Source: Trifolium pratense
Lineage: Eukaryota; Streptophyta; Magnoliopsida; Fabales; Fabaceae
Direction of reading: 5' to 3'
Assembly: GCF_020283565.1 (NCBI RefSeq)
Contig: NC_060060.1
Span: forward strand, 35,402,001 to 35,466,000
Length of the DNA: 64,000 nt
Part shown: piece by piece, positions 3,155-43,480 of the stretch
How positions within the stretch are numbered: position 1 is the stretch's first letter
Layout: each line of letters starts with the position of its first letter
Notes under the pieces: model-generated
Databases searched by the model: none
What the model was told of the DNA's origin: nothing
The model's input: only the letters and a program-made list of their open reading frames with translations
Made by a program: the position numbers and the translations under genes

Positions 3155-3207
<53 letters not shown>
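3155..3207. repeat. (AT)n microsatellite
   Basis: About 26 uninterrupted AT dinucleotides. Confidence 0.95.
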
Positions 3208-3210
<3 letters not shown>

Positions 3211-4066
3211 ATCATTCTTACATGACATTCATGATTTAAAGAGTCATATTTAATACATGGAGAAAAAAATGAAAGAAAATTATTCTTTACAAGATATATT
3301 GATGGGTATACCGTTGTTGGTGCTATTTGTTGAGAAAATCATGACCTTTCGACATGTATATTTTCAACCAAAATCAACAATATTTAATATTGAAATGCAT
3401 GACTATAGTCATAATTAATTCATGAAAATGAGAGAAAATTAATTGAATGTGAATTATCTAATATTTAAAATAAATTTTTTAATTGAAAATAAATAATAAA
3501 ATTAATTTTTTTACATTTTCTTTAATTAATATTCACCACACTTAAATTTTTAAACTAAAAATAAAATTAGTAATATTATTAAATTACTACCATCATCATA
3601 TAATTTTTTTTAAGCCCCAATTTTATATGGGCACATTCACAAGTCCGGCCCTGGATTAAGTAGTTTTGTCTTTACAATTACATTTTAAATTAAATGATAA
3701 CTTTGTAACTATTGTACATTGAATATTGAAAAAGTAAAAGCTATTTTAAAACAAAAAGAATTAATACAGTAGTAATAATAGTATTATATATTATATTAGT
3801 CAGTAATAGGAGTAACTATTATATATAAAAATGAAAAATAATAGTGGTAGCTTTTATGTGTGACGATTCTTTTGTATTTTGCAACAAGTAATGAAGTTGG
3901 TTTTAGTTTTAATATGTCCAATGTCCAATATATGTATGTTGTGACCTAAGCTTTGGTTGAAAATATTGAATAGGACCAGGTCAATTATTATTGGTCAGTC
4001 TTGTATGTCCTTATTTTTATCTGACTTTTCCCCTTCATTTTTGTTACTCCAAAATATCATCATTAT

Positions 4067-28020: not shown

Positions 28021-29765
28021 ATTGTATTTTTATTTTCGCCTATATTTTTGTTCGCTTTTGTTTTCACCCATATTCTTCTTAAGACACCATTTTTATGCTG
28101 TTTAATACACGCTTAGCCAGATGGATTTGTGTGATTATAAGTAAATTAACAGATCAATAGTTTAGAGTTTAGACTTTAGACTCTTACTAAATCTGTGACA
28201 TCAATACATCATGGTTGAATAATCAAAGTTTTTTTGACAGATAGATGGGTTGTTTCATTTCATAATAATAATAATAATTACAAATACAATCATATTTCAA
28301 CATGGAAGGACAGGTACTATGTACGAAACATCGCTCTTCTATTATTCTGGTAGATAGATTGAATGCATAAGACAGGACACAAGTAAAAAAAGCACAAGCA
28401 GATACCGTCGGTGAGCACAAGTTGTTTAAGAGTTTTTTACAAAAAAAATAAAAAAAATCATTGATTAATTAGATGCATATTTTTTTTTTAATCAAACTAG
28501 TATAAATTATTTTATTTTTTCAATTATAAAAATTATAAACACCATTAACTTCTTTATCCAAAAAACGATACATTCACCGTCCTAAAATGAAGGACATATT
28601 TGATCACTTCACGATTTTTAATGCATAATTTTGATCATTAATATAATTAGTTATATATTATTAAAATTATAAAAATTGTATATTTTGGAAATATTTATAG
28701 AGACAATCAAATATTTTATATTGATATGCAAGGGTCGGAGTTCGAACCACGAACATCTCACTTATCTATCTTAAAGGTGAAATTTTTAGTAGGCAACAGG
28801 GCGGGGGAGGGGGATTTTACCCTCCTCAAACTCATAAAGTTCATGTTTCCCCAAACTCATCTCAATTCCAAGCGGGGATACAAATTATAACTTCAAACTC
28901 ATACCCAACCCAACGGGGATCGGGTATTCCCGTTACGCCTCTTTTCACATGAAATTTTGATTATATTTTAGAATAATTAATGTATAGAATAATTAACATT
29001 TGAGTAACGGTTGATCCCTCCCCATATATAAATGTTTGATTGTTACTAAATCATAAATTTGACTTTTTTTCTTCTAATTAATTTTTTTTTTTTTACTACA
29101 AATTTTAATATTATTGTTAGCATTTATTATTGTTAGCTTTAAATTTAAAACTCATGGCATTTTTCCCTATTTCAATTTTTTTTTACTGTCCCTATTTCAA
29201 TTTATTAATCCTTACTAAATTATGAATTTTAACTTGTCAAGTGTGTCTCGTAATTCTTTTTTTCCAGAAAATGAATGAGAATGAGAGGCGAAATTATATT
29301 GAGGAAATAACTAAAATGGTTTACGATAGGACTGGTATACTTTTATTGTTCAATAGAGGATGGTATACCGAGACACAAGTGTTTTGAAATGACACCTTTT
29401 TTTTTTTTTTTAATGGAGGGTACCAAACAATTTATTATAGTTGGAATTGAGTATTACAAGTATTGCGATAAACTTCAAGCTGCACAACAATACAAACTTG
29501 CAGGAAAAACCATTCATTCCAATTTCAAATCAATAGATCGAAGGCCTACAAAATAAAAGCATACGGTTTACTATATAGTACATTCAAAAAATATGGATTT
29601 AGATCCTCTTTTATTTGTTCTCATATTGATCATGTTTTGGTAATTTAATTTTAGTCGTTCATTCACGTTTTTTCTCTCTCTCTCTCTCTCTCTCATCTTA
29701 ATTGTTTTTTGTGACTTACGACAAGTGAATTAAGAAAAGAAGAGGCATGAGGGAGTATTATTTTT
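28021..29765. other. Intergenic region
   Basis: AT-rich; a SINE fragment at 28733-28795, a GC-richer patch at 28796-28940 that looks like repeat DNA, a short CT microsatellite at about 29674-29695, and the left flank of the large MULE. No gene seen. Confidence 0.6.
28733..28795 (+). mobile_element. SINE fragment
   Basis: TTCGAACCAC followed by CTCACTTAT and AAAGGTGAAATTTTTAGTAG matches the 3' half of the SINE at 332-464 in order. Confidence 0.35.
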
Positions 29766-29838
29766 GAAGTTTTCTCTCCCGACCCCCCTCATTTCTTTTA
29801 TACCCCCTGAATTTCCGTTTTTACCCTTGGGGGGTACT

Positions 29839-30000
29839 GCGGTTTATAAAAACCGAAGTCTTTTGACATCTTGAAACATTTCGGTAATTGCGAACCGAAC
29901 GTGGTGTTGACATCGTTCGGTATCCACGAACCGAATGTAGGGTTACTTCGGTGGATATTAACCGAAGGAATGGTTGATTCGGTTGATATTAACCGAAGTT
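29839..30000. repeat. Left subterminal block of TTCGGT/ACCGAA inverted motifs
   Basis: Five closely spaced imperfect palindromes of the form CGGTT-(6 to 10 bases)-AACCGAA, for example GCGGTTTATAAAAACCGAAG and TTCGGTTGATATTAACCGAA. They may be transposase binding sites by analogy with subterminal motifs of other DNA transposons (inference). Confidence 0.8.
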
Positions 30001-30535
30001 ATCTTACATATGAACAATTTCAGTAAGTTCGTTTTATTTTGAAAAACAAACCACAAAACTCCTCTCTTCCTTTCTTCTACACATTTGCGGCCAACTTCAA
30101 CATCCAACTTCAAATCACATTTCATCAAGTAAGTTTGTTTTCTTTATTTGTCATTCTATGCATTCCTCATCACCATGACATTTGAAATTCATTTTTTGTT
30201 CTTCCCTATAAAAATTCCAAAATTTCAATATCTGATTATTGAGTTAAATTGTTGATTATGTTGTTTGAATCGTTGATTATTGGTTAGTTGTTAGATTGGT
30301 TACATACTAGCATGAATGAATGTTGCTAATTGAGTTAAATGTGAATATGAAGCTAATTGAGTTATAGTGTACTCTAAGTGTTTGTCAAAATGTACGAGTG
30401 AATATGAATGCATGTTTCCATTTGAATTATGTTTCCATTGTTGCAAGAATCATGTGTTCGATTGAATTATAAGTATGAATTTATCATAGATTAATTGTTT
30501 GTATTGACTGTGAATTTATTTATCTATGTATAGAT

Positions 30536-32686
30536 ATGGAAGAAAATCTACCTAGGGGTAGGCATGGAAAGGCAATCAATGCACATGCTTCCGCTCGTAG
30601 AGAGCTTGCTGCAAATCATCCGTCCAAACGAGGTCGTCGCAAAGGACCAACTCCGGGGCAAGGTACACATGATGCCGAGGCGGGTGGGTCGCATACACGT
30701 GGACGGACACGTCTAGGACAATCATTGGTGGTGCAAGATGAATTTGATGCCGACCAATTTTTAAATGCGTGTTTTGATTATGATGATCTTGGATCACCAC
30801 AAGTCTCACCACAAGTCTCACCGCAACACTCACCGCAAGATGAACCGCAAGACCCACCGCAACAACCACCTCGACAACAACGGCGCAAACCAGTACGCCG
30901 AAAACCACCAAAGTGTTCACGTAATGATGATGAAGTAGGTTTTGGAGGAGGACCGACGGATTTGTCCTTGTTAACGGAGTACGATAAGCATATGGCTATT
31001 CCGATATGGTATGCAGACCCAAATGACAAAGAGGTAAACCAATTTAAAATACGACGATTATTTTATTAAAAATGTTGTGATTACGTTAGCTCGATAATGT
31101 TTTGTGTTATTTGAATTTTTCAGATTTTAGCGGTAAATTTATGTTGCATCGCCAGCGGAAAAAAAGTTATTAATATACAAAAACCGTCCCGCCGCACGGA
31201 CAGATGGTTTTGGGATGTGGTTGAAGCATCGGGTTTGGAGCCGCTTACCCGGACTAATTTTAGCGTGCTTGACTACGGGCTCCTCTGGGCATTTGTTGAA
31301 AGATGGCATACGGAGACGAGTTCATTCCACATTCCATTGGGTGAGCTGGCCATCACATTGGACGATGTCCAGTGTCTGTTGCATATTCCGATCGAGGGAA
31401 AGTTTCTGAACCATGGCAAAATGTCAAGGGATGAAGCGGCTGACATGGTTAATTCATTTCTAGGAGTTGATCGGAATGTTGTTATGGGTCATTTTGCCAA
31501 AATGAACGGGCTCCATCTGAAGCATTCTGACGTGGAGGATATCTATAGTGTTAACCACGGATTAGCTGATAAAGCTGTTGCTGAAGGTAAGTCGGCGCAT
31601 GAGATTAAGCTGTATAGGGACAGGTCCATACGGGCTTTCTTGCTATTTTTGGTCTGTTGTACCATATTTAGCAACAAAAGCAGTTACTACGTGGACGTAG
31701 TATACCTGCAGTATTTTCAGGATTTGTCGGCTGTCCGTGAATGGAATTGGGGTGCTGCTGCTCTGGTTCATTTGCAACATTATCTGGATGATGCGTGTTT
31801 GGTGACAGTGAATCAGATGGCTGGGTACATGTCTTTGCTTCAGGTAACACAAGCGTGCGCTTACGAAAATTATTCAACATGTATGATATGTAATGTCCGT
31901 CAATATAATGAAACTTGTTTGTCATGCTTTCAGGGCTGGATAATTTCTCATTTTCCGGGACTTAGCGTGTGGGCGCAGGATCCTATCTATTCTGAGGTCA
32001 TGCCTCGAAATGCAAAGTTTGTTCCTGGAGCTGGACATAGGGAACCAAGTAGCTATAGAAACAGTTTGGATAATATTCAGACGTACGACTGCGTATTCAG
32101 TCCATATGATGATCACCGACACGTCCGCCCTTTGATAAATTCATGCTGGTTTTCTGGATGGTTGAGATGTGGTAATTTGAAAGCAAAGCATTTGCCTGAA
32201 CGCGTGCTTAGACAATTTAAACATGTCCAAGGCATTCCTAGAAAACCGGATTTGTCTGCGACTCCGGGGATGAGCCTATGTGAGATTGATCGTGTTTTTA
32301 TGGAGGAGTTGGATTTGAGGATGATTGCTGAAGAGATGAGGGGTCAGGCTGTGGTTAGCGCATGGGACCATGAACCTGGATACATGACATGGTTTTACAA
32401 AGTGTCGCATCCAGTTATGCGACCCGTACAAGCTCCGGCGTCACCACCAAGGCCACCTAACTTAGAGGTGTTGATAGAGGCCGCGGAAGCAAGGAATGAC
32501 CCTAACATGCTTCAGGTATGCCGTGGTGTTAGGGATGAGGTGGAGAGGTCACTTCGCGAAGGTGAGGCGGTGGAAGGAACTCCTGTTCATGGTACTTTGC
32601 GGAGGATTTTGAATTTGCTTAACCCTGTTTTGACGTGTCGGCGACTTAAGCGGGGTAGAGGGAGACGGTACAACACTCGAGAGTAG
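30536..32686 (+). CDS. Plant mobile domain (MAIN-like) protein A, transposon cargo
   Basis: Exons: 30536-31033, 31124-31843, 31934-32686; 1971 bases, 656 residues. A 5'-UTR intron probably spans 30129-30533. The N-terminal 130 residues are low-complexity and basic, with a Ser-Pro-Gln repeat at about residues 87-115. The plant mobile domain follows, recognised from WFWDVVEASGLEPL, the LLWAFVERWHTET segment, FHIPLGELAITLDDVQCLL and WNWGAAALVHLQ. This is the domain of Arabidopsis MAIN/MAIL proteins and of 'serine/threonine phosphatase 7 long form homolog' entries. Host MAIN proteins act in the nucleus in gene silencing and meristem maintenance; what a transposon copy does is unknown. The 90-base second intron lacks stops, so the frame runs through it; splicing is supported by strong CAG|GTAACA and TTTCAG|GGC sites and by the homologous intron in gene B. 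It ends in a basic tail. Confidence 0.8.
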
Positions 32687-33825
32687 GCTTAGCTAATATT
32701 GTAACTCAGTTGTTGTTTAATGTAATTTTATTATTTGAATTTGTCGAATTTGGATGTAGTCTGATTCAAACAATTTGGTGTATTTGACTACGTTTAATTA
32801 CCCGTTACCTTTTTTAAATTTCCGTTAGCGTGATGTGTCTAATACTCAGCTATGTTATGATAGTTTATGATGTTACATAAACGTGCAAGACCCAAAAAAC
32901 AAAAAAAAAAATTATGCAATTCATTTCGGTATCCAGTTACCGATATCTGGGTAGATTTCGGTATATGGTAACCGAATATACATTTCGGTAGCTTTATGCC
33001 GACACGACCTAATTCCAGTGAACCAAAGAAAATTTCGGTATCCAGGTACCGATATATGGGTAACTTTCGGTACCTGATAACCGAATATACATTCGGTAAA
33101 TTTCTGCCGAATAGATCATATTCCAGTGAACGAAACAAAATTTCGGTATCCACGTACCGATATCTGGGTAAATTTCGGTACCTGGTAACCGAAATATCTT
33201 TCGGTATATTTCTGCCGAATACGTCCTGTCCAGTGAACCAATGAAAATTCCGGGGACTATTTACCGAAATCTGGGTGAGATTCGGTACACAACTGCCGAA
33301 AACGCTGTAGTTCGGTTCGCATTTACCGAAATTAACTAATATATTAAGAAAAACTTTAAACGTTCACCATTTGCGCGAAAACGGTTTGCAACAGAGGCTA
33401 GGGCGATTTTGGAGGTTTCAATCGCAAATTTAAGGTTTCACCGGTAGAACGACAATTTCTCTCTTCTAAACATTCAATTTCTCCCTGATAATCACCAAGC
33501 TCATATCTACAAGTAAGTTTTCAAACTCAACTCTCTCATTTTCTTGCTTTTTTTTTTTTTTTTTTTTGATTTGTTAATGCTCGTGATTATTGTTTTGATT
33601 CCACTAAATTTGGGGTTGTATTTTAATTTAGGGTATATGATTGGACTTGTATAGGGTAATTTATTTTAGGGCATATGAATTGGATTTGTATTCTTGTTTA
33701 TGTGCACCAAGTGTTTGACAAAATGCTTGTATGAGTATTGATTTATGTATAAAAATTGTTTGAATGAGTAACCGATGAATATTGATTTCGTAGATACTTA
33801 TGGTGACTGTTTTCTTGTAGGAATC
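32687..33825. other. Spacer between the two plant mobile domain genes
   Basis: Holds the 3' flank of gene A, the 108-bp tandem repeat array (32924-33335), and the leader of gene B, with a likely 5'-UTR intron at 33513-33820 (CTACAA|GTAAGT donor, CTTGTAG acceptor) matching that of gene A. No further gene. Confidence 0.7.
32924..33335. repeat. 108-bp tandem repeat built of TTCGGTA/TACCGAA palindromes
   Basis: TTTCGGTATCCA occurs at 32924, 33033 and 33141, and CCAGTGAAC at about 33015, 33123 and 33230, giving a period of 108-109 bp with three full units and a diverged fourth. Each unit contains GTACCGATATCTGGGTA, TTTCGGTACCTGGTAACCGA and TTTCTGCCGAATA. Related single units in the same orientation lie at 36320-36535, and inverted ones at 38130-38362. 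Confidence 0.88.
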
Positions 33826-36042
33826 ATGACGGACGACAAAGTTGGCCGAACAAGACGTGGCGGTGCAAGCAAAGCACATAGCTCTGCACGTAGACAGGCT
33901 GCGGTCAATGTAGATAAAATTCCAAGTCGAGCTAAAGGGAAAGCAGTTTCAACCACGATGGATGAGCCTCGACCGGAGGATGCAGAATCGCAAGAGGAGA
34001 ATGAAGACGTGGAAGAAAATATTTCTGAAGAAGGGGAAGAGGAAGGGGAGGAAGGGGAGGAAGGAGTGGATGAGGAAGCGGAGGAAGCGGACGAGGAAGC
34101 GGATGAAGAGGGGGATGATGATGGGGAAGAAGAAATTGATGAGGAAGCGGAAGAGGAAATGGAGGAGGAAGAGGAGGCTGAACAACCACCACCAGAACCT
34201 AAAAAACCACGGAAAAAGGTTACGCGAGTAACACAAGGAAGGAACCCACCACGAGTAAAACCACCACCAGTTACATGTTATGATGGTGGTCCGTCTGACT
34301 TGTCTTTGTTGCCGGGATTTGGAAAACATGTTGCTGTCCCGTTGTGGAAAGGAGAGGTAAGTTACGATTCAGATAACACTATTTATTTTCGATGTCGATT
34401 GTTATGAAGTGTAATGAAGTGTAATGTTTTGCAGCTCCAATCCCGGTATTTGAGGGTAATGAACAACGGGAAAAAAATCAACAATTTCAAGATATGTCCG
34501 AAAGAGTACTTGTGGTTTTGGAATGTCGTTAATGCGTCCGGACTCGAAACTCTGCGGCGGACAAATTACAATCACACCGATTGGGGTCTGTTGACGGCAT
34601 TTGCAGAGCGATGGCATCCTGAGACCGGAACTTTCCATCTTCCTATTGGTGAGATGACTATAACCTTGGACGACGTGTCGTCATTGCTTCATATTCCGAT
34701 TACCGGAAAAATGCTCGACCACAACGGAACGTCATGTACAAAGGAAGATGGTGAAGAGATGTGCGTAGAGTATCTGAACTTCCCTATTAGTAAGTGCAAG
34801 AAAGAGTTTCAAAAAATGAAAGGAGCACATATAGGGTTTAAGGCGTTGAAGGATTTGTATCTCGATAATTTGAAGGATGCCTTGAAAGCTGAAAGGTTAA
34901 AGAAGCCTGCTGAAGATGTGGAATTCCTCAGGGAATGCACCATTAGATGCTATTTGCTCTACTTGATCGGTGCAACCATTTTCACCAACAAAAGTATGCA
35001 GTACGTGGACGTCATTTTTCTTACCTACTTGCGAGACCTCAGTTTAGTTAACACGTGGAATTGGGGTGCTTCTGGGCTGGCATATCTGTACAACTACTTG
35101 GATGCTGCAAGCCGCCCGAGATGTGGAAATCATGGTGGTTATAACTGTCTATTTCAGGTATACATACAAACTCAAAATGCATTTTGCCTTTTAACTGAAT
35201 GTCGGTTGTTATAATTAAATATTTTGCTTACCCATATCATGTGTTTTCAATAGGCCTGGATTATGGCGCATTTCAAGACTTTTGGTGGACGTTTTGTTGA
35301 TGAGAGATACACCCACGACAATCCCTATGCGGCAAGATTTTTGCCTTTAAAAGGACCAAAATTTCCAGGGCAGCATAGGTCCGCATTGGATACAATGCGC
35401 ATGGATGAAGTGGTGTTTTGCCCATATGAGGAGCACCGGCAAACCAGACCCTTTCAAGATATCAGTTGGTACACTGGTTGGATTATGTGTGGAAGTGCTA
35501 TTATCAATCCACACTTGCCAGAGCGTGTCCTCCGACAATTCGGACATGTCCAGTCTATCCCTAGGCACCCTGATGTATCTGCAAAGGCTGGTATGAATCG
35601 GTTTACGATTGCTGATGCATTTGCTTCCTACCTGACTGCCAACTATGTGACAGAGGAGATGCGAGGACCAAAAGTTGTGCGTGCATTTGATACCGTACCC
35701 GGATACATTCCATGGTTATACCGTGTTTCTCATCCGAAGATATTGCCACCGGTTGAAGCGGATCCACCAACACATGCTAACCTTGAGGAGGACAACGTGA
35801 GCGGTGAATGCGACGTGTCTGAAGTGACTAAGAAGGTTCGAGCGGATTTGAGGAAAGCGCTCGATGGTCAACTCAATTTGGCCGATGCTTTGGTGGTTAT
35901 TGAAAAAGCCTACACTGATTTGGACCCTGTAGATGCATATTTGGTGCGACGGAAGAGGAGAAGAGACTCGGGTGAAGGAACAAAGAAGAGGAAGAAGAAG
36001 AAGAAGACAACAACGGAAGATGCCGGAACAAGCAGCTTGTAG
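33826..36042 (+). CDS. Plant mobile domain (MAIN-like) protein B, transposon cargo
   Basis: Exons: 33826-34356, 34435-35157, 35254-36042; 2043 bases, 680 residues. It is a tandem paralogue of gene A with the same exon number, phases and splice contexts (the second intron again falls just before a small-residue-Trp-Ile). Residues about 50-118 are an almost unbroken Glu/Asp run, then a Pro/Lys/Arg linker. The plant mobile domain shows the WFWNVVNASGLETL, LLTAFAERWHPETG and WNWGASGLAYL segments. The C-terminus is Lys/Arg-rich (RRKRRRDSG and KKRKKKKK), which looks like a nuclear localisation signal. The start at 33826 follows the acceptor of a probable 5'-UTR intron and aligns with gene A. Identity to gene A is clear but moderate, so the duplication is not recent. 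Function on the element is unknown. Confidence 0.8.
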
Positions 36043-36652
36043 TTTTTTATTTTTTGTTTTCGCTATGTTTTTTTTTTTTTTTTTTAACCTACCGTGTACG
36101 ATGGAACAATTTGTCCGTATAATTTCGTTTTGCTTGTGATGTATGAACATGGATTTATATTGAATGCGGTTTCCATTTTAATTTGTTTTTTAATTGGATT
36201 TGGATTGGAATGTATGAATTTCATTTGAAATACGATTATATCCGAACAGGTGATTTCGCGTGGATATGATCCCACGGATGATACACAGTTTAAAGTCATT
36301 TGTTGGGAAAAGATATATTTCGGTAAAACTCTGCCGAAACATACTAAAACAGTGAGCCAGGAAAAAGTTCGGGAGGATATTACCGAAATCTGGGTAATAT
36401 TCGGGTTTCAGTTACCGAAATAACGCGTTCGGTAAAGTTGTGCCGAAATTACCTATTTCCAGTGAGCGAGTCAAAATTCCGGTACATAAATACCGAAATC
36501 TGGGAACAATTTGGTAATATTTTACCGAAATAGTATTAATTATAACTTCAAGAAAATGAAACACACTTAGGCAAACTAAAAATCACAACAAAGATGAAAA
36601 GGAAAACACACTTAGGCAAATTAAAAAACAAAACGATAACAACACGGTCGCA
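36043..36652. other. Spacer with TTCGG-type motifs (36305-36535)
   Basis: The 3' flank of gene B includes a long T run at 36068-36085. From 36320 to 36535 there are two diverged units of the 108-bp repeat (GGTAAA-CTCTGCCGAAA, CAGTGAGC, TACCGAAATCTGGG), in the same orientation as the array at 32924. Confidence 0.75.
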
Positions 36653-37045
36653 TCACTTAGTTTGCCTATTTGGGTCTTCCGGCCCAACAAGACAAGCAAG
36701 GATGGCTTCAACTGATCTTGTCAGTGTCGCATCTAGCTCGATAGGTCCCGTGGAGGAGTACTGCTCGAAGATTGAAAACATAGTTTCAACATCATCGTTG
36801 TTTTCAACAGCCATACGAGTGAAAGCAACGCGTCCGTCAGAACCAATTGATGGCTTTCGATACAGGAGATTTGATACCGTTCTATTGTCGTTCGGGTTGT
36901 TGACGGTGCGATTCAGTTGGTACAGCTGCTGTTTCAGACCTTCGAACGTTTCACCGTCATTGATTCGAAACAAATGCGGTTTTCCATCGCCGAAGTAAAC
37001 TGCCGCAAGAGTAGATCTCATTCGTTGTGTGAGTGAGACATCCAT
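36653..37045 (-). CDS. Small PB1/ubiquitin-like-fold protein 1, transposon cargo
   Basis: Intact frame of 130 residues from the ATG at 37045; an upstream in-frame ATG at 37120 would give 155. I do not recognise it by name. The N-terminal half (AVYFGDGKPHLFRI, then GETFEGLKQQLYQLN) has the beta-strand, beta-strand, helix layout and spacing of PB1 or ubiquitin-like domains, and a later acidic motif NNDDVETMFSIFE resembles the acidic loop of PB1 domains. It is related to the neighbouring frame at 37370-37741, which has NDDDVNDMF at the same place. In some plant MULEs a PB1-like domain sits at the transposase N-terminus; here it may be encoded separately (inference). Confidence 0.55.
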   Translation of the reverse strand: MDVSLTQRMRSTLAAVYFGDGKPHLFRINDGETFEGLKQQLYQLNRTVNNPNDNRTVSNLLYRKPSIGSDGRVAFTRMAVENNDDVETMFSIFEQYSSTGPIELDATLTRSVEAILACLVGPEDPNRQTK

Positions 37046-37369
37046 TTTCCCGTTATTTTTTTTCTGTCGAGTGTTGAATTCAACAAAACACGTGAATTTA
37101 AAGATGGGTTTGGTGCACATTATGGCGGTAGGTGAGCGTTAATGAGGTGGATTGGTAGTTAGCGGAGTTAGGTGGGCTTAAATGCGGTAGGTGGGTGTTG
37201 ATTCGTTTGGCGAGCGTTTAGAAAATTTAGATGGAGCATAAAAAACGTGCAACATAAAAGCATTCATTAATTAAAAGGTCACATCAACATAACTGAAAAA
37301 TAAGCGATAACGTAAACGAAAATGCAACGACAACATAACTGGGAATTCAACAACATGAGTAACCAAATT

Positions 37370-37741
37370 TCAGTTTGTAACTAATAAGGTAGCATACAAA
37401 CGTGGATACTTCGGATCAACTTCTACCCCATTGAACATGTCGTTCACATCGTCATCATTTTTCAACTCCTTCCACTCGTATTTTCGGGGTTGCTCATCAT
37501 ATCCACCGACATTATCACTGGCCAGATCGATTGTCGATTCGTAATACGCAATTTTTTCTATTTTGATTTGTCTGCCGTATTTGAAGCGATACATGACTTC
37601 GATCTGGCGTTTAAGAGCTTGAATAGTCGTCAAGTTGTTCGACAGGTCAACGCAGAACAACTCGTCGTTACCTCGAAACTTAACTGAAAATGCATGAGAT
37701 GTCGCCCTATTGTTATTAACAGACCGATTTGAAGCACTCAT
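37370..37741 (-). CDS. Small PB1/ubiquitin-like-fold protein 2, transposon cargo
   Basis: Intact frame of 123 residues from the ATG at 37741; an in-frame ATG at 37783 gives 137. The start FSVKFRGNDELFCVDL, followed by a helix (IQALKRQIEVMYRFKYG) and the acidic NDDDVNDMFNGVE, parallels protein 1 and fits a beta-grasp (PB1/ubiquitin-like) fold. It lies between protein 1 and the transposase-OTU gene, on the same strand. No function is claimed; possible roles are oligomerisation of the transposition complex or interaction with the OTU domain. Confidence 0.5.
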   Translation of the reverse strand: MSASNRSVNNNRATSHAFSVKFRGNDELFCVDLSNNLTTIQALKRQIEVMYRFKYGRQIKIEKIAYYESTIDLASDNVGGYDEQPRKYEWKELKNDDDVNDMFNGVEVDPKYPRLYATLLVTN

Positions 37742-37783
37742 TTTGCGAAATTGTTCAAACGTGTTTTTCACAACTATACACAT

Positions 37784-38672
37784 ACGGCAGTTTTATACTA
37801 CATTCAATCTAATTACGGCCACATAATTTCGTCGGTGTATTTTAACCACAACTAAATGTCGGTGTAATCTTGACCACAAAAAAAAAATAAAAATTGTCGG
37901 TCCAATCTCGACCACAAAAAGTGTCGGTGTAATCTCAAATATAAATTATATGACGGGTTCGTATCGATTAAGTTATTTATATGATTTTTAACAAGTTTTT
38001 AGGCATATGCTTACATCTTTTCTACCCCCCAGTTTTCTTTTATACCCCCAGTAAACAGTTGTAAATTTAAACACATTTCGGTTCGCATTCCCCGAAGTTT
38101 ACGAGTTCGGTTAATATTCACCGAAGTTGACTATCATACCCCCTTATTTCGGTACCAATCTACCGAAAATTTCAGTGGTTCACTGGAATTTGTATGATTC
38201 GGCAGATGTTTACCGAAATTTGAGTTCGGTAACTATTTGCCGAAAGAACAGCATACTTCGGTACCAATCTACCGAAAATTTCGGTTGTTCACTGGAAATA
38301 GGCTGGTTCGGCAGATATTTACCGAAATCTGGGTAAATTCCGGTACCTAGTTACCGAAATATATTTTCATGACAACCAATGATATTGTAACTCACGACCT
38401 TCCATGGAATGACATCCACGCGAAATCCATTGTTAACGCTGTTCATCCAGACACATTCATATTGGAAAAATTATTCATACAATTACACAACATCAAAATT
38501 ACTTCAACCAATATCATTATATTGACACAAACAATTACACAACACCAAATCACTTCAATATATTTCATTACAAAATGGATGTCATTACATCTCGATTCAT
38601 ATCATTACAAAATGGATGTTCTTTACATCAAAATATATAACAACGTAAAATACATTAAAATAGGCCAAATGA
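37784..38672. other. Internal spacer with TIR-like sequence and inverted motif block
   Basis: At about 38014-38050 a sequence TTTTCTACCCCCCAG then TTTTATACCCCC resembles the outer end of the element in the left-end orientation. From 38076 to 38362 a block of TTCGGTA/TACCGAAA palindromes follows, with TTCACTGGAA, the reverse complement of the CAGTGAA word in the 32924 array; the repeat is thus inverted here. The rest is AT-rich with direct 'attacaaaatgga' words near 38570-38620. Confidence 0.7.
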
Positions 38673-41600
38673 TCAGTCAATCACCAATGGAGTTTCTCTA
38701 CTGCCTGCACCAACTATTTTGACGGGGACAACGTTCTCGGTGCTCATCATCTCCTCGAACCTATGTTGCGCAGCTATGAATGAATCTTCCCAACCCAAAC
38801 TTTGTTTAGCACAATATTGCTTCCACGACTTGTTTGATTTGGGTATCGGACACCCAACTTTAAGCTTTACCAAAACATAGTGATCCGGTAACGCGCCAAG
38901 GCAAATAACCCTTGAAGACGGGTTTGGTGACGGAATGGAACGCAATGGGAAAAAAGTTTCACAAGGCCCGTTTTGAAGTATGGAGAGCTGAACAACTACT
39001 CTATCCAATATGGTGGCCACGATATGTCCCATATCCGGCAACGTGAACCATTTATCCATCGGTGCAACACTATTCCTAATACTAGTACGTTGTCTCGTCC
39101 TCGGGGGTGGGAGTAGTGCATCACAGATATATTGGTAACGCTCCTCGCAACCAAATATAGCAACATACATATCCTTATTCAATCGCAACTCCCTGCTCAT
39201 GTTGCACCGTATCAGTTCAAAATCATCTTCGTTGCCTCTCTGAGCCAATGCAACGGCACGGTAACCACAATAGCCGTCGCCGTCCACGTTGGTGATATCT
39301 TCAATGAAGGGATGCATGAATTTTGGCATGTGGTTAATTCCAAAAATTTGAGATGATGAGGTTAGTGGCAATGGGTTGGACACAGTGAGCGGAGCTTCAG
39401 ACACCGTAGGCATAGGGTTTGATGCGGTAGGTTGTGATGATGATGGCCTTGAGTGGGACGGAATTGACGGAGACGGCTTTGACGATTGCGACGCTTGTGT
39501 CTCCGTGAAATATTCTTCAACATGCTCCCATCGAGACTTATCTCTGCTGGTGGATCTTGTTCCACGGACCACCTTTTTCTTTTTAGCCCCTTTTGATTTT
39601 ACATTTGTGGTCGGAGGCTCCACATCGGTGGTTGTAGGATACGCAATCTTGCGGAGTTGATCTCGGATCTCATTTTTCATGCTTACATCAGCTGTCCTCA
39701 ATCGTTCCTAAAACAAACAAAAAAAAAATGCCATTAAAAATTAAAAACCAACGCATAATGATCGTAAAATCGTAAAATAAGTGTATTATGCCTTTAATAA
39801 ACACGCACCTGAATTGCTTGCCACTCTGCCGTGCACGCATAATCGTCCTCGACGTCGCCACCAACTTCTTCATCTTGGAAACAAATTATCTTCCAATGTT
39901 TGTAAACCTCATCGAGTCTAATAGGCCTATTGTGGTGCAGTTTCTTGGCAATCAAACACGCACATGGCAGCCCGTAGTTAGTCCTCATCAGACAACCACA
40001 CTTCATGCTATCCATACCAGTAAACTCGACTCTTTTTGATTCAGTGTGGATGTATCTCATTGCACGTCTAGAGACTTTAAACATCAAAGTCGAGTAAAGT
40101 GTTTTCTTCCGGTATGTGTGTCCATACACAGACATGTTCTGGCCAAATTCAGTTTGCACTTGGGTGAATTGATTGCCTAACATTCTGTGAATCGATTCCC
40201 AACCCTTCACCAAATCACCGAGACCGTCGGTCAAGTAACTTTTCAAAACACCGTGTGCGCTTTCGGCTCTATTTGTCGTATGGTTGCCCATGTGCATATA
40301 CTTGTCCACCCATGCACTCACGAGCTTCTCTTTGTCGGTGTCCAAAATTGTCTCTTCAACGTACCGAACAAATTTTGGCCACCTCTCACATAACTTCCTA
40401 AAAGCCATAACATTTTCAGTATACTCAGCCTCAGTAGACGAATCTAACACATCCTCGAACGCCAAACAGACTCTTTCCCTCATGTCCGCCGCCTTGACCT
40501 TTTCCCCATCCCTCACCTTGACCAGCTCGGCTGCCTTGGTCCTCACATTCTTCTTAACATGGAACCGACAAACCAACGCCGCCGCTTCTGGAAACACAGC
40601 CGGAATAGCATTCATCAAAGCTAAATCTCGATCCGTCAAGATAACCTTCGGCAAATTTGTCTCACGCCTTAACAAACAACGTAGTTGTTGCAGAGCCCAT
40701 ATAAAGTTGTCTTCCTTTTCGTTACTGAGCCAGGCAAAAGCAACGTTGAATGTCTTCTCGGTCGAAGTGAATCCGACTATCTCAAACAGCGGCATTTTGT
40801 ACTTGCTGGTTTTGTATGTGGAGTCCATCATCAGCACAGTATGAAAAGAGTTCAATAAAGTTATGGACCTCGGATGTGCAAAAAATATATCTTGAAGATG
40901 TTCTACTCCATTTTCAACAACCGTCCGATACTTGTAGTAGTACTTGTTATCATCAAGCTTCTTGCATAAGTGTTGCATCTCAGTCATGGACGCCCTCATT
41001 TTAACTCTGTACCTATGACGAGCGTTGTACACTTGCTTTGCAGAGGTCTTGTTTTCCGGATCTCTCTCCTTTAATGTGGACAATATGTTTTTTGGAGCCA
41101 CCGCATTCCTTGTCATCTCGTCCATAAAATCCTTCTCTTGTGGTTTCAAACGCCCCGCCACGAGATGCCCTTCAAGCCCTTTGTCCAACTCGTGGTTATG
41201 CATACCGTTGACAACAGTCAAACGCCATAGTTTTGTTGCCTTGTTGTAATACCCACGGAGTCGGAAAGGACATTCGCATTTTCTTGTTCCGGAGGTATCG
41301 GATTTCAACTTCTTCTTGGCTGGAACATACTTCCCACTACGTTCACACTCTAACACCAATTGAGCCTTTCTCTTCTCGCCCGAATCAGATCGCCTAACTA
41401 TAATTGCGAACCTTAAACTTTGCGACACGCTTCGAGCCCATTTGATCAACTCATCTCTGTCGTTCTCTTCCCTATCAGTCGCAAAATGAGACGATGTGTC
41501 AATTTCTATCGGCTGCGGCACATTAGGAGGACTTCTTGGTTGACCAGCTGGAACAATGCCCGTTGCAAAAAGGCCAAGCACAACAGGTCGCCTAACTTCG

Positions 41601-41990
41601 ACAACTTCGTTAATTTCGCCTTCCGTAACTACAGCATACGCAAATGAAAAAACAATCAATCAACCACACATAATATTTACAATCCTATTACAACACTAAT
41701 TAAACACATAGGACACTATGAAGTCAATATGAAGCCAAAATAAAGCCAAGTCAATATGAAGTACAGTTTATAAGTCAATATAAAGTCAAGTCAAGCCAAG
41801 CCTAAGCCTAACGCAGAGGATCAACATTTCGGTTCGTATAAACCGAAGGTCACATAACTTGACTTCGGTTTATATTCCCCGAAGGATTACTGTCAGAAAC
41901 CTTGCGAGAACAGAACCTATGATAGCAAGAAAAAACGAATTTAAATCGGTGGTTACCTGAGTTTTGTGCTTTGGTGCGTGTTGAATCCAT
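38673..41990 (-). CDS. MULE transposase fused to an OTU cysteine protease domain
   Basis: Exons, minus strand order: 41990-41957, 41628-39809, 39707-38673; 2889 bases, 962 residues. Order of domains: short leader; a zinc-binding WRKY/FAR1-like N-terminal domain (KCECPFRLRGY to MHNHEL, about residues 128-158); the MULE transposase core with catalytic acids visible as Asp in MMDSTYK (about 280), Asp in ILTDRD (about 344) and Glu in NRAESAHG (about 467), plus the CRFH pair of the core; a SWIM zinc finger (CGC...C.C...H, about 555-576); a Pro/Ser-rich linker; and a C-terminal OTU domain with the nucleophile Cys in DGYCGYRA (about 765) and a candidate His in PDHYV (about 894). OTU enzymes cleave ubiquitin chains. 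All three exons join in frame with good splice sites and no stops, so the gene looks functional. The joined model replaces what look like separate transposase and OTU frames. Confidence 0.88.
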
Positions 41991-42205
41991 TAGATGATGC
42001 TTCAATCTCGATTTCAAGCCTCAAATGCGTCAAAAATTGATCTTCTTTCCGTAAGCTTTTCAAATTCTCGTTTTGTGAATAATAAGAACTGACAGCAGAG
42101 TTTTTATATATAGAAACACTTCGGTTAACATTAACCGAAGTAATGTAGCGAGTGGGTTATATAAACCGAAGTCCATGGCCTGCGGTTCGTAAAAACCGAA
42201 GTATC
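41827..42205. repeat. Right subterminal TTCGGT/ACCGAA motif clusters
   Basis: Two clusters, 41827-41885 and 42119-42203, flank the transposase first exon. Palindromes such as TTCGGTTAACATTAACCGAA and GCGGTTCGTAAAAACCGAAG mirror those in the left subterminal block at 29839-30000. Confidence 0.8.
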
Positions 42206-42292
42206 TTGGCAAAATTTTTTTATACCGCAAGGGGCAAAATGGGATTTTCGGGGGGTATAAAAGAAATGGGGGGGGTCGGGAGAGAAAACTTC

Positions 42293-43480
42293 ATTATTTT
42301 TTCTCATTGACTAGATTGAATCTAAAACAAACAGTGAAGGACTAAATTGGACTAAATTGTTTTGCTTTAATCATTTAAAAATAATGGCATGATTAATTAA
42401 TATAGTAGTATATGTTGTCAACATTAGAACATTAAGCTCAAATCTCAACCATTCTCCCAGAATTGTTGTTTTAGATTCAAACCTAAACTTCACCCTCAGT
42501 CAATAATGTTAACCTTGGAGAGCATAATGCACTCTATGAGAGGTACTCACCAACTATTTCTTTTTGTCTACTTTTATTTGAATAGTGAACTAGACCACTT
42601 TCTTTGACCACGACCGGGAATGGATACTCGTATGTATGATTTACACGTGAAAGAATAAAGTGTAATCTCTCACCACATAAATTCACTTCATTTAATTTCT
42701 TATATGTTCATCTCTCTTGATAAATGGTGAGAGATTACACTTTATTCTCTCAAGTGTAAATCACATTTGAGAGGATTCATTCCCGCCATTTTATCTTGAT
42801 ACAATTAAGTAAGCATTACTTAAGAACTTCCAGCAAAACTATAATAGACAGTGTACACGTTCAGACCTCAAGGCAAATACACATCCCATGCAAGTCTCAA
42901 AATCATTGAACATATATGAATGCTAAAATCAATTACAAAGAGAGGAAAATCAAAGAAGAAAACATTAACGACACACAACCGACCATAGATCCTTCCTTGT
43001 TAGCTAAACTTTTGGTACCGCTTTATTATTTGGACAGATTCAGGTGGAATAATGCTTGGAAAACACATCTGTCATTTCGGGTGATGAATTATGGGATATA
43101 TCAGCACTGGACTTTCGTTTACCGACTGTTAACACTGGTTTCTTCGCCTTTAAATTGCTGATAACAATTTTCATGTTATAATATTCAGATAACAACACCT
43201 AAACATACAAAAATAAGATTCCAACTCCTTTACAGGAGACAAGGGTTGAAGATATTAAGTGAACAGCATGTATAGACAAAGCTAATGCAATACTTTGAAA
43301 ATGGAATGAAAAGACAAATATTAATAGGCACGATGATACATAACCGTTTTTGCCAAAAGTGGATCATGCCCCCCAAAAGTGGTCTATACAAAACTGCATG
43401 CAGTGCATGCCTTAGACACAGCAATGGCACACTGAGAATAAAGGATCACTATTCACCAATAAGATTTTCCAGAAGGGAAA
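42293..43480. other. Intergenic region with foldback MITE
   Basis: The right flank of the MULE, a foldback element at about 42605-42795, and the presumed 3' UTR of TDP2 (about 43200-43480). No gene seen. Confidence 0.6.
42605..42795. mobile_element. Foldback MITE
   Basis: The left arm GGGAATGGATAC...GATTTACACGTG...AATAAAGTGTAATCTCTC (to 42675) and the reverse complement of the right arm from about 42726 match in order, leaving a 50-bp loop. No coding capacity. Confidence 0.6.

Follow-up and report, generated by a model that had tools for sequence, protein, structure and literature searches.

Transposition of Mutator-like elements (MULEs) is carried out by a DDE transposase that acts at the ends of the element. 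In red clover (Trifolium pratense), one MULE has four genes in addition to that of its transposase, and the question that it raises is what these genes do. The element, whose body comprises 12,527 bp (positions 29766-42292), lies in a stretch of 64,000 nucleotides, here called the window, which corresponds to positions 35,402,001 to 35,466,000 of contig NC_060060.1. Two of its genes encode plant mobile domain (PMD) proteins, PMD1 and PMD2, two others encode the small proteins A and B, and the fifth encodes a transposase fused to a predicted OTU domain. The reading that we favour, with a confidence slightly better than even, is that the element belongs to an autonomous, recently active MULE family in which all five genes would serve the element, the extra ones as a putative anti-silencing kit. 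An earlier note on this DNA had suggested a role in silencing or ubiquitin control; the selection on the genes, the family-specific motif arrays and the OTU fold agree with such a possible role.

The ends of the element were searched in the 413.6-Mb assembly, and the counts of left and right ends are lower bounds. The left end, a 335-bp query, gave at least 41 matches, of which at least 40 are separate left ends; at least 30 of these cover 314 bases or more of the query with an identity of at least 95%. The right end gave at least 40 matches. Among the matches listed, 31 of the 40 left ends have a partner, a right end of the same orientation no more than 20 kb away; the paired spans measure 12.0-13.1 kb in 18 cases, are shorter in 12 and reach 14.8 kb in one. 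Target duplications of MULEs are about 9 bp long. Exact 9-bp duplications, all different, flank the window copy and all ten copies that were fetched whole, which are those with the best left-end matches, the window copy aside. Nine further copies with paired ends, in which only the ends were checked, have six exact duplications, one that is shifted by one base and two with none, which brings the exact, locus-specific duplications to 17 of 20 in a sample that is not random. The perfect 9-bp flanking repeat and the matching terminal inverted repeats described in the earlier note are present at the window copy. The inverted ends, of about 61 bp, align over 62 nt at 88.7%, including one base of the duplication (E 8.6e-17, search within the element), or over 69 nt at 86% in another alignment. 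With a MULE-type DDE transposase domain, a duplication of about 9 bp and inverted ends common to dispersed copies, the element is a member of the MULE superfamily. The outcome that would have refuted the mobile-unit view of the note, a lack of any second copy with these ends, does not apply: the family has at least 40 left ends in the genome. Since, in addition, 17 of 20 copies have exact duplications that differ between loci, the single mobile unit of 12.5 kb that had been proposed is real and was recently active.

Seven of the ten fetched copies are near full length, and their coding sequences are 98.7-100% identical to those of the window copy. All five genes are open in c2, c7, c9 and c10, thus in five of eight near-full-length copies with the window included; this was judged from the exons, the splice sites of the copies being outside the check. 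PMD1 is broken in c4, PMD2 in c6 and the transposase in c11. The other three copies, c3, c5 and c8, are internal-deletion derivatives that have kept both ends and exact duplications. For copies aligned in one piece, the identity to the whole window element is 99.5% (c2), 98.5% (c4) and 98.2% (c10). The movement is recent, since c2 differs from the window copy by 36 mismatches in 12.5 kb. An empty site lacking the window copy, which the note had proposed to look for, was not found in this one assembly: when the joined flanks were searched, each flank occurred once, beside the element, and no match crossed the joint. Seven further matches were obtained, of which six are short (30-46 bases, all within one low-complexity part of the left flank) and the seventh, 73% identical over query positions 7-137, ends before the joint. 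Elsewhere, at C1:12981214-12995807 (ends in L056 and L057), the family forms a head-to-head composite of 14.6 kb that terminates in a right end on either side, with an exact duplication of 9 bp, TTATTTGCG, around it. Only its ends were examined, no left end is among the matches listed, and the two right ends seem to have been mobilised as one unit.

The five genes, reported before as open, could all be modelled in the window element with intact frames and GT-AG introns (Table 1). PMD1 and PMD2 are 42% identical, have a common three-exon plan, and both score above the Pfam cut-off for PF10536; MAIN-LIKE 1 and similar names are labels given by annotators. Protein A has 155 aa from the first ATG or 130 aa from an inner one, and protein B has 137 or 123 aa. 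The beta-grasp-like fold suggested for B fits a predicted PB1-like model of modest confidence, and a protein search with B gave five matches, four of them named Trifolium. A relation of A and B as paralogues is poorly supported (27% identity in a forced alignment). The transposase contains the MULE domain PF10551 (Pfam, E 2.5e-28), and the closest relative of the transposase-OTU protein, 99% identical, is also from T. pratense. Among 22 aligned relatives, the zinc-finger models AFT and FAR1 are found in 15 and 11, respectively. The DDE acids had been assigned by eye; D408 and E531 are in columns that are at least 90% conserved, but the first D is not. Similarly, the SWIM finger can be seen by eye as a CxC...CxC pattern, but Pfam gave no SWIM model match at E 1.

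The OTU part has no Pfam match. However, a profile made from 22 sequences matches OTUD5 in the PDB (E 0.001), and its predicted fold agrees with OTU domains, with catalytic Cys and His that are at least 90% conserved. By this predicted model, the OTU part is a deubiquitinase-type fold with its catalytic Cys and His. Legume transposase-OTU proteins (P0001, P0002, P0017, P0082 and others) frequently bear the name 'PKS-NRPS hybrid synthetase cheA-like' or 'FAR1-RELATED SEQUENCE', and for some the name is 'protein phosphatase 2C' or 'aquaporin'. These names look wrong, or derived from fused gene models.

When the third exon of PMD2 was searched against the genome, 147 matches were obtained, and one member from each of three further groups, X2, X3 and X4, was fetched. 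X2 (8,230 bp, duplication TCAAGAAAA) has a PMD2-type gene, X3 (7,981 bp, duplication GGTACAAAT) a PMD1-type gene, and X4 (8,888 bp, duplication ATTAAAAGT) a PMD1-type gene together with A; each also has B and transposase-OTU. They represent three divergent families in the same genome, each with its own ends. The core common to the families comprises PMD, B and transposase-OTU, with PMD on the opposite strand. A fifth PMD group was seen at C3:10.30 Mb. Neighbours within 9 kb were tallied for the best 103 of 119 OTU matches, some of which are pieces of one gene, against the best 66 of 120 A matches, the best 76 of 118 B matches and all 147 PMD matches. Window-like OTU matches (at least 92% identity) have PMD in 29, B in 31, A in 27 and all three in 26 of 34 cases. 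For X4-like matches, the corresponding numbers are 19, 21, 18 and 16 of 27, and for more distant ones, 17, 14, 1 and 1 of 42.

Related gene arrangements occur elsewhere. At L036 (1-3500) and at C1:24740745, a MuDR-type transposase ORF has an A-like N-terminus, and beside it are a B-like match and an A-like ORF that stands alone, which makes A and B gene kinds common to two MULE branches; in the genome match lists, no PMD or OTU match is nearby. On the reverse strand of L037, a PMD gene (584-2598) and an A-like ORF (3168-3644) are adjacent on one strand, with few motifs of the kind described below. No transposase match within 10 kb and no clear element were found there; this pair may be a decayed element or may have been taken over by the host.

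All five genes are under purifying selection between families. Between the window element and X4, dN/dS is 0.29 for PMD1, 0.17 for A, 0.28 for B and 0.16 for transposase-OTU. It is 0.29 for PMD2 and 0.15 for B in the comparison with X2, and 0.25 for PMD1 and 0.17 for B in that with X3; synonymous sites of transposase-OTU are saturated in both. Within the family, the seven near-full-length copies compared with the window have 40 replacement and 42 silent variants when pooled (pN/pS 0.27, p 5e-9), and PMD2, B and the transposase are each significant singly (p <0.01). Their usefulness to the element seems to be the reason why the genes persist, and as selection preserves the extra genes, these would serve it too. 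A fresh capture from the host, which the earlier note had considered, does not agree with the same gene kinds being under purifying selection in three divergent sister families. The genes look like long-standing element genes that have been exchanged as modules between families.

The window element is likely a mosaic of such modules. Synonymous divergence, given as the proportion of synonymous differences with intervals in brackets, is 0.454 (0.41-0.51) for PMD1, 0.486 (0.38-0.59) for A and 0.412 (0.29-0.54) for B between the window element and X4, compared with 0.686 (0.62-0.74) for the transposase and 0.659 (0.59-0.74) for OTU. Between the window element and X2, PMD2 is at 0.515 (0.47-0.57), compared with 0.731 for B, 0.728 for the transposase and 0.801 for OTU. 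These values suggest that PMD1-A-B and PMD2 are imports younger than the transposase. The simplest reading would be that, once the transposase lineages had separated, exchange with an X4-like element involved PMD1-A-B and exchange with an X2-like element involved PMD2. Other pairs weaken the mosaic reading without removing it: PMD1 is below the transposase also between the window element and X3 (0.641 vs 0.754) and between X3 and X4 (0.622 vs 0.716), B is low between X3 and X4 as well (0.453), and the intervals of A and B are wide. The weight thus lies mainly on PMD1 in the X4 comparison (0.454 vs 0.686) and PMD2 in the X2 comparison (0.515 vs 0.728). The window spacers that flank PMD2, in which the breakpoints of the PMD2 import were sought, have no match in X4 at E 1e-4.

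The non-coding spacers of the window element contain arrays of a short motif, in part as tandem repeats detected by TRF. Copies of TTCGGT/ACCGAA number 50 in the non-coding sequence of this element (4,862 nt), one in its coding sequence (7,665 nt) and 12 in the flank (51,455 nt). With no preset motif, the top enriched hexamers contain or overlap a TTCGG core in all four families, and the next base varies: the class is TTCGGTT in X4, TTCGGA in X3, and TTCGGTA and TTCGGC in X2. In the window element, the X4 class exceeds the X2 class by 13 to 2 in the outer spacers together with intron 1 of the transposase, while the X2 class exceeds the X4 class by 34 to 7 in the inner spacers; the Fisher p of 3e-6 for this split is overstated, since tandem copies are not independent. 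The X2 class in the inner spacers suggests that the PMD2 module brought its own motif class, and the arrays thus seem to have travelled with it.

In the mechanism that we propose, the transposase would bind the ends of the element, cut and join. The TTCGG-motif arrays of the non-coding spacers, specific to each family, would recruit the PMD proteins, which would there counter silencing and maintain expression of the element. The PB1-like proteins could be partners in assembly, and the transposase-fused OTU domain could strip ubiquitin from the transposase complex or from the target chromatin. We infer the anti-silencing part from the domain shared with MAIN and MAIL1 (PMC5418596, PMC8616336), from the motif arrays and from a precedent. 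Arabidopsis requires both of these PMD proteins for silencing, PMDs captured by MULEs are suggested to counter it (PMC5418596), and motif arrays are linked to anti-silencing by VANC proteins in the Arabidopsis MULEs VANDAL21/Hi (PMC5735166, PMC10398659). Several observations weigh against this reading. The motif is also found near the ends, where the transposase must bind, and may be a transposase site only. Motif class and PMD type were compared in four families with one copy each. Taken singly within the family, the excess of silent variants is not significant for PMD1 (p 0.08), OTU (p 0.22) and A (p 0.56). In the 9-kb tally, 38 of the 103 best OTU matches, some of them partial, have no PMD match and 37 have no B match, and so the kit is not universal. 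Finally, c3 (locus L011; 5,985 bp), which is nearly identical to the window copy and has an intact duplication, lacks PMD2, A and most of PMD1, while B and transposase-OTU are open. These missing genes are therefore dispensable in cis, although the deletion, whose joint has about 3 shared bases as faulty gap repair would give, may predate or postdate the insertion.

The strongest alternative is that the extra genes aid transposition rather than escape from silencing: the PMD and PB1-like proteins would either be part of the transposition complex or direct its targeting, and TTCGG would be a transposase-binding site that doubles as a promoter. We regard this as possible, though clearly less probable than an anti-silencing kit. 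It is consistent with the motif clusters in both subterminal regions. Furthermore, small protein A is similar to MuDR-type transposase ORFs in their N-terminal part, and the standalone A-like and B-like genes near one such ORF have neither PMD nor OTU beside them; A and B thus look like general MULE accessory proteins. However, the count of motif copies in the spacers of the window element is 60, of which 46 are internal and mostly of another class than those at the ends, and c3 bears a target duplication without PMD2, A and most of PMD1. More tentatively still, PMD proteins may be the readers of a second, independently evolved, motif-coded anti-silencing system, in which every MULE family would match a particular PMD type to a TTCGG-x motif of its own; the window element would then be a two-reader hybrid made by the import of PMD2 and its arrays, and the fused OTU would edit ubiquitin there.

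Two other explanations are very improbable. Nested or adjacent elements could by accident mimic one unit, as the terminal-repeat-like relic, located in the B-OTU spacer between the PMD1-A-B/PMD2 blocks and transposase-OTU, and the inverted arrays inside the element would allow; but the common spans of 12.0-13.1 kb in 18 of 31 paired ends and the collinearity of seven near-full-length copies with the window over the inner part indicate that the element is mobilised as a whole, even if separate parts once went into its making. An equally slim chance is left to passive cargo captured from the host in the manner of a Pack-MULE, since, although MULEs often carry gene fragments (PMC13317346) and hosts have PMD genes (PMC5418596), these are whole genes with introns, all five are under purifying selection between families, and the same gene kinds recur in three divergent families, each of which has ends and a 9-bp duplication of its own.

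The anti-silencing reading can be compared with known systems. Like the window element, VANDALs with VANC are MULE-type, have a transposase and accessory genes, and differ in motif between related families (PMC5735166, PMC10398659, PMC13317346). However, VANDALs are non-TIR MULEs with VANC genes (PMC13317346), while the window element has inverted ends of about 61 bp, an OTU fused to the transposase, and PMD and small PB1-like genes. Moreover, anti-silencing is demonstrated for VANC (PMC5735166), whereas it is putative here; the likeness of the two systems is anatomical. A Pfam scan of nine ORFs, the only search made for a VANC homologue, gave above the cut-offs only PMD, MULE and ZSWIM1-3_RNaseH-like. 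MULE-borne PMD-C genes also combine a PMD within a MULE with a suggested anti-silencing role, but they are fusions with transposases, in grasses and Amborella (PMC5418596). In contrast, the window and sister elements, from a legume, have one or two separate PMD genes, which are opposite in strand to that of the transposase and are accompanied by OTU and small genes.

Ulp1 is a protease of the SUMO type. The KIU/Kaonashi VANDALs with an Ulp1 domain are also MULEs that keep a protease domain of a ubiquitin-like-protein pathway, located there in a VANC-type gene (PMC13317346), whereas the predicted OTU, a deubiquitinase fold, is fused to the transposase. In the MUGB genes, PB1 is likewise tied to MULE transposases, as a 5' exon of a domesticated transposase gene (PMC3435246, PMC8616336), while the PB1-like genes of the window element stand alone in a live element. 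MULEs with multiple TIRs also have an extra terminal repeat (PMC3310237); that of the window element is a short relic deep inside and not a tandem terminal repeat. Pack-MULEs have no transposase of their own and carry gene fragments, whereas the window element has a full transposase and whole genes. In a search of full-text literature, with subscription papers and Repbase outside its scope, none of the matches listed describes a MULE with PMD, OTU and PB1-like genes together; the family may be known under another name. The features of the element are listed in Table 1. It is surrounded by ordinary genes in the window (4155-55682): nine of the ten outside ORFs tested have a Pfam match, among them glycine cleavage T protein, multicopper oxidase, GH17 glucanase, PAPS reductase and a RanBP-type zinc finger.

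Table 1 Features of the red clover element, in window positions.
Feature	Position	Strand	Description
Target-site duplication, left	29757-29765		ATTATTTTT, identical to 42293-42301
Left terminal inverted repeat	29766-29826	+	At least 40 left ends genome-wide
Left subterminal motif cluster	29837-30014		Mostly TTCGGTT class
PMD1	30536-32686 (exons 30536-31033, 31124-31843, 31934-32686)	+	656 aa; PF10536; MAIN-like plant mobile domain
108-bp tandem array, PMD1-PMD2 spacer	32923-33338		Mostly TTCGGTA/TTCGGC
PMD2	33826-36042 (exons 33826-34356, 34435-35157, 35254-36042)	+	680 aa; PF10536; plant mobile domain
Second motif array, PMD2-A spacer	36310-36532		2 units
Small protein A	36653-37120	-	Similar to N-terminal part of MuDR-type transposase ORFs
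Small protein B	37370-37783	-	Predicted PB1-like (beta-grasp) fold
Inner relic like left terminal repeat	38019-38055	+	88% over 26 nt vs left end; also matches X4 ends
Third motif array, B-OTU spacer	38141-38363		2 units, inverted
Transposase-OTU gene	38673-41990 (exons 41990-41957, 41628-39809, 39707-38673)	-	962 aa; MULE transposase fused to predicted OTU domain
Right subterminal motif cluster	42103-42211		TTCGGTT class
Right terminal inverted repeat	42232-42292	-	At least 40 right-end matches genome-wide
Target-site duplication, right	42293-42301		ATTATTTTT

Red clover offers a system in which the function of PMD proteins can be tested, with many near-identical and often intact elements, natural deletion derivatives, and sister families that differ in their PMD and motif types. 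The passage of whole accessory genes between transposon families is noteworthy by itself. If true, the pairing of motif and PMD would mean a DNA-targeted role for PMD proteins, and sequence-specific anti-silencing would have arisen more than once.

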